Of a stretch of DNA of 35,122 nt, positions 7,231 to 9,410 are shown piece after piece. This stretch comes from Pseudomonadota bacterium. GTDB taxonomy: Bacteria; Desulfobacterota; Desulfarculia; Desulfarculales; Desulfarculaceae. Positions within the stretch are counted from its first letter, which is position 1; each line of letters begins with the position of its first letter. The translations under genes and the position numbers were made by a program. The notes beneath the pieces are model-generated. The model saw only the letters and a program-made list of their open reading frames with translations, searched no databases and had not been told where the DNA came from. The stretch lies in the NCBI GenBank assembly GCA_018819925.1, contig JAHJPG010000005.1:1-35122 (forward strand), read 5' to 3'.

Positions 7231-8484
7231 ATGGACCCTCTTCGCTCCACTGATCCCGAGATCGCGGATCTCATAGAAAAGGAAACGCGGCGCCAGAGCG
7301 CGGTGCTGCGCATGATTCCCTCTGAAAACTACGCCTCGGACGCGGTGCTGGCCGCCAGCGGCAGCATCCTGTGCAACAAATATTCCGAAGGCTACCCGGC
7401 CAAGCGATACTACCAGGGCCAGGAAAACATCGACGAGATCGAGCGCTTGGCCACCACCCGGGCCAAGGACCTGTTCGGGGCCGAGCACGCCAACGTGCAG
7501 CCCTATTCGGGCAGCCCGGCCAACATGGCGGTGTACCTGGGGCTCTTGGGCAAGGGCGGCCGGGTGCTGGGCATGGACCTGGCCGCCGGCGGCCACCTGA
7601 CCCACGGGGCCAAGGCCAGCTTTTCGGGTCTCTTTTATGAGGTGGCCGCCTACGGCCTGAGCCGGGAGAGCGGGCGCATCGACTACGCCCAGGCCCGCCG
7701 CCTGGCCAAGGAGTTCAAGCCCCAGATGATCTTCTGCGGGGCCTCCTCCTATCCCCGGGTCGTCGACTTCGCGGCCTTCGCCGAGATAGCCGCCGAGGTG
7801 GGGGCACGCCTGGTGGCCGATATCAGCCACATCTCCGGGCTGTGCTTCACTGGCCAGCATCCCGCGCCCTTTCCCCACGTAGACGTGGTCACCACCACCA
7901 CCCACAAGCTTTTGCGCGGCCCCCGGGGAGGCATGATCCTCTGCCGGCAAGAACTGGCCGCGGCCATCGACAAGGCGGTGTTCCCCGGCCTGCAGGGCGG
8001 GCCCCACAACCAGACCACTGCGGCCATCGCGGTGGCCCTGAAAGAGGCCGCCTCCCCGGATTACCGCGAATATTGCCGCCGGGTGGTGGAAAATAGCAAG
8101 GCCCTGGCCGAGGGACTACTCTCCCGGGGCCTCACCCTGGTCACCGGGGGCACTGACAACCACCTGGCGCTCATCGACGCCGGGGCCGCCGGGCTCACCG
8201 GCAAGGCCCTGGCCTCCGGCCTGGAGCGGGCGGGCATCGTGGCCAACGCCAACAAGATCCCCTTCGACCCCCGCCCGGCCCACGACCCCAGCGGGCTGCG
8301 CTTGGGCACTCCGGCCCTCACCAGCCGGGGCATGGGCGTGGCCGAGATGGACCTAGTCGCCGGGTTGGTCCACCAGACGGCGGTCAACCTGGAAGACCAC
8401 GCCGCCTTGGACAACATCCGCCAACTGGTGGCCGAGCTATGCCTGGATTTTCCGGCTCCGGGAATCACTCCCTGTGAGTGTTGA
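7231..8484 (+). CDS. glyA: Serine hydroxymethyltransferase
   Basis: The 417-aa PLP enzyme interconverts serine and glycine with tetrahydrofolate. The internal-aldimine lysine is K226 in TTTTHKLLRGPRGG, D197 and H200 lie in ADISHISGL, and PSENYAS near residue 30 and the NKYSEGYPAKRYYQG block are classic. The ADISHISGL form, in place of the commoner DMAHIAGL, and the short Cys-containing C-terminus (TPCEC) are mild divergences. The ATG follows AAGGAAC about ten bases upstream. It is monocistronic: it has its own promoter and is followed by the hairpin region and a strong terminator. Identity is clear; whether it is the only copy in the genome cannot be seen. Confidence 0.93.
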   Translation: MDPLRSTDPEIADLIEKETRRQSAVLRMIPSENYASDAVLAASGSILCNKYSEGYPAKRYYQGQENIDEIERLATTRAKDLFGAEHANVQPYSGSPANMAVYLGLLGKGGRVLGMDLAAGGHLTHGAKASFSGLFYEVAAYGLSRESGRIDYAQARRLAKEFKPQMIFCGASSYPRVVDFAAFAEIAAEVGARLVADISHISGLCFTGQHPAPFPHVDVVTTTTHKLLRGPRGGMILCRQELAAAIDKAVFPGLQGGPHNQTTAAIAVALKEAASPDYREYCRRVVENSKALAEGLLSRGLTLVTGGTDNHLALIDAGAAGLTGKALASGLERAGIVANANKIPFDPRPAHDPSGLRLGTPALTSRGMGVAEMDLVAGLVHQTAVNLEDHAALDNIRQLVAELCLDFPAPGITPCEC

Positions 8485-8670
8485 TTTTTGAACTGAATTT
8501 TTGGCATTGATTAAGGCGGGTTATGCAAAGTGATTCTCGGAAGCCCCAATGGCGGTTCAAAAATTTGTACCCGCACGGCTTGTCAGCCGGCGGGGAGCGC
8601 AGAGGGCCTTCTGGGACAAGTTGCTGATATCAATGGATTAACCAAGGAGAAAAGGCTTTTGGTTGGCAGT

Positions 8671-8686
8671 TGGCATCCTAATTGCT
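8671..8686 (+). promoter_or_regulatory. Sigma-54-type -24/-12 motif
   Basis: TGGCAT-N5-TTGCT places GG and GC exactly ten bases apart, as in RpoN promoters (consensus TGGCAC-N5-TTGC). Transcription would begin near 8697 and end at the 8737-8769 terminator, giving an RNA of about 70 bases with a pyrimidine tract (CCTTTTCTCC) complementary to Shine-Dalgarno sequences. The motif also lies in the apical part of hairpin 3, so it may be coincidence. Confidence 0.35.
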
Positions 8687-8736
8687 TGTATCTTAGAGCA
8701 ACCAGCTTCTAACAGCCTTTTCTCCTTTCCTAGAGA

Positions 8737-8769
8737 GCGCCGGGACTAGCCACCCGGCGCTTTCTTTTT
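8737..8769 (+). terminator. Rho-independent terminator
   Basis: A perfect 8-bp GC-rich stem, GCGCCGGG (8737-8744) with CCCGGCGC (8753-8760), an 8-base loop and the tail TTTCTTTTT. It is the clearest intrinsic terminator in the window and ends transcription from glyA or from the structured element. Confidence 0.88.
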
Positions 8770-8770
8770 G

Positions 8771-8897: not shown

Positions 8898-9410
8898 TTA
8901 GGCTGAAATCGCGGTGATCAGGCGGGCTAGGCTGGTTTTCTTTTTGACCCCACGGCGCAGATAGTCCAGGTCCGCCGCCTGGGCCAGTTCGGGCCGCTGG
9001 GCCAGGATCGACTGGCAGGCCAGTTCGGCGGCCAGGCCGCTCAATTCGGCGCACTGCTCGAAATGGGCCATTTTTTCGTGCTTGACCTTTTTGGTGAGCA
9101 CCCGGCAGCAGGTGGAGCCCCTCTGGGCCTTGAAGGCGTCGTGCAACTCCTTGCCGGCAGCGGCCACCCGGCGGCTGGAGCGGCCGCCATCCTTGCCCGC
9201 GCCCAGAAACAAACCCAGGCCCAGGCAGGCCCCGGAAACCGCCCCGCAGAGGCAGCCGGCCCCTCCCAGGCCCTCCACCAAGCCGGCGCAGAGGTTGTTG
9301 ATGAGGCTTTGGTCCAAGCCGCCGCCCAAGCCCCGGTTGAGGGCGGTGAGCACCGCCGGGGCGCAGAGCATGCGGCCGTCGGCGAAAAGCTCTTGGGCCT
9401 TGGCCCCCAA
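8898..9410 (-). CDS. C_GCAxxG_C_C family putative redox protein
   Basis: The roughly 170-aa protein carries the family signature: an early LCAPAVL cysteine (C16), the GCLCGAVSGA core (C53, C55) followed by a glycine-rich helix, and later cysteines C101, C102 and C120. The family, common in anaerobes, is predicted to be redox-active or metal-binding; no reaction is established. The start is uncertain. TTG at 9410 is the last usable codon before the first conserved cysteine. The frame stays open to a stop at 9501-9503, and an ATT at 9462-9464 has GGGAGAG four bases upstream. It is preceded by a hairpin terminator and shares no operon with the NlpC gene. Confidence 0.75.
   Translation of the reverse strand: MGAKAQELFADGRMLCAPAVLTALNRGLGGGLDQSLINNLCAGLVEGLGGAGCLCGAVSGACLGLGLFLGAGKDGGRSSRRVAAAGKELHDAFKAQRGSTCCRVLTKKVKHEKMAHFEQCAELSGLAAELACQSILAQRPELAQAADLDYLRRGVKKKTSLARLITAISA

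Follow-up and report, generated by a model that had tools for sequence, protein, structure and literature searches.

The region downstream of glyA in a Desulfarculaceae draft genome (G000; 4.03 Mb, 96% complete) carries a predicted small RNA (sRNA) of about 73 nt that is a new family. We consider it very probable that this sRNA acts in trans, being driven by sigma-54 under two-component control and pairing at the ribosome-binding sites of other messages. The window, that is, the whole stretch of 35,122 nt that was analysed, corresponds to contig C52 of this assembly. A sulfate-reducer-related order would thereby gain its own two-component-controlled sRNA. Candidates for the activator and the seed can be named along with the promoter and the enhancer sites, which makes the proposal directly testable in culturable relatives, such as Desulfarculus baarsii.

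Architecture of the locus

A preliminary description had proposed three successive hairpins at 8530–8770, ending in a strong intrinsic terminator, as an undescribed structured RNA. The hairpins are real: the plus strand of this stretch folds at −106.9 kcal/mol, whereas dinucleotide shuffles give −77.1 ± 4.7 (z −6.3, 0 out of 200), and the minus strand folds more weakly (z −3.6). The perfect 14-bp stem (AAGGAGAAAAGGCT at 8644–8657 with AGCCTTTTCTCCTT at 8714–8727) and the terminator (a 13-bp hairpin, 8732–8744 with 8753–8765, followed by U's) were recovered as described, as were the lack of a convincing gene (longest ORFs ≤60 aa) and a base composition that departs from the flanks (GC 0.45–0.55 vs 0.6–0.76 in the flanking genes). 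What had been missed is a sigma-54 promoter between the arms of the second hairpin, together with an enhancer-like palindrome at 8554–8571. The first hairpin and the 5′ half of the second are promoter and enhancer DNA that precedes the predicted start at 8697. The idea of a three-hairpin RNA is thus abandoned, while that of an undescribed small RNA stands, given the lack of an Rfam match, its conservation across the family and its own promoter and terminator. The features are as follows:

7231–8484, plus strand: glyA, serine hydroxymethyltransferase (ORF; PF00464, E 2.8e-144; NCBIfam PRK00011 over cut-off)
8477–8494, no strand: UAS1, distal enhancer-like palindrome (aligned position), about 192–194 bp upstream of the promoter
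8554–8571, no strand: UAS2, the proximal of the two enhancer-like palindromes, GGTTCAAAAATTTGTACC, some 115 bp before the promoter
8644–8662, plus strand: upstream arm complementary to the C/U block of the sRNA (complementarity 0/100 shuffles)
8670–8686, plus strand: sigma-54 −24/−12 promoter TTGGCATCCTAATTGCT, exact consensus (TTGGCAT-N5-TTGCT)
8697–8769, plus strand: predicted sRNA, about 73 nt, with its start placed by inference 12 nt after the −12 C
8699–8710, plus strand: conserved 5′ block CAACCAGCTTCT (alignments A1 and A2; ACCAGCTT nearly invariant in f1 and f2)
8714–8730, plus strand: anti-Shine-Dalgarno-like C/U block AGCCTTTTCTCCTTTCC, putative seed (kept in alignments A1 and A2)
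8732–8769, plus strand: intrinsic terminator, 13-bp hairpin and U tract (covariation)

The promoter is the only exact sigma-54 match in the window, where 0.39 matches would be expected even with one mismatch allowed. This GG-N10-GC −24/−12 element stands at the start of the RNA, and its GGCA and TTGC are invariant in 26 out of 26 aligned copies. In transcript orientation, the most conserved stretch of the alignment is the TGGCAY-N5-TTGC promoter and not a stem. Nearly all copies have a pair of palindromes, GGTWCA-N6-TGWACC, upstream of the promoter at distances of about 115 and 192 bp; these are candidate enhancer-binding-protein (EBP) sites, conserved in position and within the range of about 80–200 bp expected for a sigma-54-dependent sRNA. 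UAS2 has no mismatches to GGTWCANNNNNNTGWACC and keeps its position in nearly all copies; the pattern alone is within chance expectation for the window, and the weight lies on its conservation. In this genome, UAS1 is degenerate and overlaps the glyA stop; relatives carry GGTTCAGTTTTTTGAACC, GGTTTAATTTTTTGAACC and similar sequences between −203 and −189 relative to the model start. UAS2 is essentially unique, being the only near-perfect palindrome site found in this genome. A wider palindrome regulon was considered and rejected, as the only other near site (contig C44, 3 mismatches) lies within what we take to be ftsH coding sequence.

The predicted sRNA (folding z −4.6) consists of a mostly unpaired 35-nt leader and the terminator. 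It carries GCAACCAGCUUC and the anti-Shine-Dalgarno-like block CCUUUUCUCCUUUCC, and its order in the alignment is GGGCAACCAGCUUC, a variable A-rich spacer, CCUUUUCUCCUUUCC and the terminator. The C/U block is kept in kind in families f3 and f5. The region is present in seven out of seven other genomes of the genus that were searched, as well as in other family members. Conservation and covariation in relatives, the check suggested by the preliminary description, were found for the terminator, whereas the 14-bp stem covaries only in part of the family. Within the terminator, changes on both sides affect four pairs and 12 cells, 97.2% of cells are paired compared to 34–58% in slid controls, and the covariation score was reached in 0 out of 500 shuffles. 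The predicted transcript is non-coding and ends in this covarying intrinsic terminator.

Candidate activator and proposed mechanism

A response-regulator/EBP gene was found directly before such an RNA in four genomes from three other families. In the sister-family genome G020, genes for a kinase and for an NtrC-type EBP immediately precede the sRNA and glyA, with the sRNA upstream of glyA; at this locus, where the EBP gene is linked, the palindromes are more degenerate. In G021 (f3), G031 and G036 (both f5), a UAS pair of the same kind, a sigma-54 promoter, a C/U RNA and a terminator come directly after the EBP orthologue, within about 250 bp. The spacing in G036 places GGTTCTTTTTTTTGAACC and GGTACAAATTTTTGTACC 191 and 115 bp before TGGCAGCGATATTGC. 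Family genomes have essentially one copy each of this orthologue (54–61% identity, with the next paralogues at about 50% or lower), and the orthologues group in a single clade (support 100/99). In the inspected neighbourhoods its kinase partner adjoins it, next to what we take to be a glucose-6-phosphate isomerase gene. The genome studied here has about 43 EBP genes, and its candidate kinase/EBP pair is located at approximately C40:74122–76936, beside what is presumably a glucose-6-phosphate isomerase gene. Given the palindrome motif common to the loci and the recurrent linkage, the NtrC-type EBP orthologue is the best candidate and probably the activator of the sRNA. Since its gene is not linked to the sRNA in Desulfarculaceae, including this genome, its role in that family rests on orthology and the common motif. 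In family f4 of the class, a divergent EBP orthologue is present and the sRNA is not detectable.

We propose that the sensor kinase phosphorylates the NtrC-type response regulator (the C40 gene pair in this genome), which would bind both palindromes (at about −115 and −192) and activate sigma-54 RNA polymerase at 8670–8686 through looping of the DNA. Transcription would start near 8697 and end at the terminator near 8769. The unpaired 5′ part of the sRNA (ACCAGCUUC and CCUUUUCUCCUUUCC) would then pair with target messages and lower their translation, with the complementarity of CCUUUUCUCCUUUCC to Shine-Dalgarno sequences pointing to the putative site of pairing. A pattern search with GGAG-N-GAAGCTGG and AGAAGCTGGTTG retrieved no conserved target site across the genomes inspected. 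Such sites are frequent within or antisense to coding sequence, and the one common to G000 and G004 does not lie at a recognisable gene start. Hfq (PF17209) was not detected in this draft genome.

A possible hidden form of the seed

In the 14-bp stem, sequence from upstream of the promoter is complementary to the C/U block of the sRNA. Since its 5′ arm precedes the −24 box and hence falls outside the sigma-54 transcript, only RNA read through from glyA could form the stem. No terminator of glyA's own was recognised between glyA and the sRNA terminator. The arms covary as pairs: AAAAGGCT/AGCCTTTT in most of the genus, AAAAGGTATTT/AAATACCTTTT in G003, AAAAAGGGTTG/CAACCCTTTTT in G009 and AAAAGGGTTTTTT/AAAAAACCCTTTT in G010. 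In an own-versus-cross permutation of 14 copies, own upstream/RNA pairs outscored swapped pairs (p = 5e-5). The folding predictions contrast the two forms, the seed of G000 being unpaired with a probability of 0.01 in the read-through form vs 0.99 in the sigma-54 form. The same contrast is predicted for most of the genus, with similar values in close relatives. With shuffled upstream sequences, the seed was as hidden in 0 out of 60 cases for both G000 and G007, and rarely for G004.

These results would fit a dual use of the glyA 3′ UTR: glyA read-through RNA as well as the sigma-54 sRNA would be produced, with the seed covered by the upstream arm in the former, and the promoter used would decide whether the same bases are inert or active. 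This would be compatible with a trans-acting sRNA, as an addition to it, and we regard it as possible but doubtful. The upstream arm is missing in G002, G011, G015, G012 and G008 and absent in several genera; the hidden-seed effect was not seen in four of these genomes (G011, G015, G012 and G008), and against shuffles it is weak, absent or non-significant in several others. The 14-bp stem is thus best described as a real feature, limited to certain lineages and with a putative function. A secondary proposal within our main reading is that the stem, by hiding the seed in read-through RNA, would leave only the sigma-54 transcript active. Taken further, the same seed would exist as an active sRNA and as an inert part of the glyA message, with promoter choice, not processing, deciding between them. 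We hold this last reading to be rather unlikely.

Alternative functions and genomic distribution

The C/U-rich leader could instead act as a sponge that titrates an RNA-binding protein, with no base-pairing role. The conserved part of the RNA is indeed short and unpaired, and both the target search without a conserved site and the failure to detect Hfq would agree with this. However, a single C/U block per RNA together with the conserved second block ACCAGCUUC suits pairing better, and the RNA lacks GGA hairpins of the CsrA type. We, therefore, judge a sponge improbable, and a base-pairing sRNA is retained as the preferred explanation.

The preliminary description had also offered a glyA 3′ UTR, whose hairpins would act in the glyA message (stability, termination), the promoter-like box being incidental. 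The post-glyA position is kept in most family genomes, the sRNA terminator is the only one recognised for glyA, and the 14-bp stem spans the promoter with lineage-specific compensatory pairing, all of which would fit such an element. Its genomic distribution argues otherwise. A covariance model (R1), built from 14 copies, matched 18 out of 20 Desulfarculaceae genomes (E 1e-7 to 1e-26) and two places in G020; in a phylum sample of 395 genomes, the RNA is otherwise rare. Copies away from glyA, in G015 (C116), G008 (C1 and C3) and G012, still have the promoter and, as a minimum, the proximal palindrome, indicating that these elements go with the RNA rather than with glyA. Genus g7 contains tandem sRNA duplicates, each with its own sigma-54 promoter and with one shared UAS pair (L008:1506–1825, L012:1471–1791, L053:1575–1879 and L054:10945–11250). 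Taken together, the tandem and non-glyA copies show that the unit is not a tail of glyA. Furthermore, the promoter is its most conserved part, and the RNA lies before glyA in G020 and after the EBP gene in f3 and f5. A role confined to the glyA message is, therefore, very improbable, and an independent sRNA accounts better for these copies. Phage or plasmid origin was also considered and set aside, with no match.

The two copies in G008 are diverged and located on different contigs (L047:8170–8263 and L048:8108–8222). They lack the ACCAGCUUC block and retain the promoter, palindromes, C/U block and terminator; they are possibly paralogous sRNAs with other targets.

Comparison with known systems

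Sigma-54-dependent ncRNAs have been described beside EBP genes in Desulfovibrio vulgaris, one downstream of DVU0653 and another, Dv_sRNA2, downstream of DVU0679, both of unknown function (PMC4641369, PMC3333781). The RNA reported here is of the same kind, as judged by description and not by sequence: it combines a sigma-54 promoter, a two-component EBP as candidate activator and a non-coding product, and it is encoded beside that activator in f2, f3 and f5. In contrast to the Desulfovibrio ncRNAs, the Desulfarculaceae RNA sits at the end of glyA and not near the EBP gene. The present RNA suggests that the sparsely studied Desulfovibrio ncRNAs belong to a larger class whose members often have their EBP gene as a neighbour. 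It also suggests that such RNAs can settle at the ends of unrelated genes, where a reader guided by folding mistakes them for a 3′ UTR.

In agreement with the preliminary description, which recognised no known RNA class, the Rfam search gave no match at the gathering score and no credible match at E≤10. The Qrr sRNAs of Vibrio (RF00195), controlled by LuxO, are short sigma-54 sRNAs with their own terminator and an NtrC-type activator; several copies are present in some genomes, and their seed is directed against ribosome-binding sites. The present RNA resembles them in all these respects, with a candidate activator and a putative anti-RBS seed, and differs in its enhancer palindrome, in the lack of a quorum-sensing context and in that Hfq was not found here. 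Qrr itself gave no match at the gathering score or at E≤10, and LuxO was rejected as the activator (the candidate scored 387 bits vs a LuxO cut-off of 800). GlmY/GlmZ and CrcZ are sigma-54 sRNAs under QseF/GlrR or CbrB, with GlmY and CrcZ acting by decoy or protein titration. They share the scheme of a two-component EBP driving one dedicated sRNA via upstream palindromes; unlike them, the present RNA has no sequence or structure match in Rfam. The alpha-proteobacterial suhB/mmgR family (RF00519) is alike in being a short RNA with an anti-Shine-Dalgarno stretch before its terminator, yet membership was rejected (14.9 bits vs a gathering score of 41). Likewise, 6S RNA (RF00013) is a small RNA with a long hairpin, and the only match in this genome lies elsewhere (C100, 50.7 bits). 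Being of the Desulfovibrio-like kind, and neither Qrr, suhB/mmgR nor 6S RNA, it is assigned to a new family.

Related loci in the phylum

The named relatives retrieved by pattern search are all Desulfarculaceae (Desulfarculus, Desulfocarbo). A pattern scan of genome contigs returned 26 stretches; the 13 inspected outside Desulfarculaceae had no UAS/terminator layout and were judged to be chance matches. Several weak model matches elsewhere in the phylum have sigma-54 boxes and terminators, and the palindrome is convincingly shared only by those in family f22. The f22 loci (L089, L091 and L092, at 1501–1602) contain a sigma-54 box, a C/U block (CCTTTCTCCC or TCTTTCCCCT) and a terminator, preceded by a AGTTAAATTTTTTGAACC palindrome, and the EBP orthologue is encoded elsewhere in f22. 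They likely represent the same sRNA system in a distant family.

At L096 (G187, approximately 1501–1608), a sigma-54-like box, a C/U-rich stretch and a terminator directly follow another EBP-like gene, and an EBP gene coupled to an sRNA may be a layout that recurs in the phylum. Locus L088 (G347, 1501–1603; 52.6 bits) has a sigma-54 box, CUCUUUCCUCCUCU and a terminator, with a differing upstream repeat, ATGGCGGGATTATGG; it is possibly a related sRNA under another activator. Within the window, the convergent gene at 8901–9410 (minus strand) encodes a C_GCAxxG_C_C putative redox protein (PF09719), and several members of the genus likewise have a PF09719 gene next to the sRNA.
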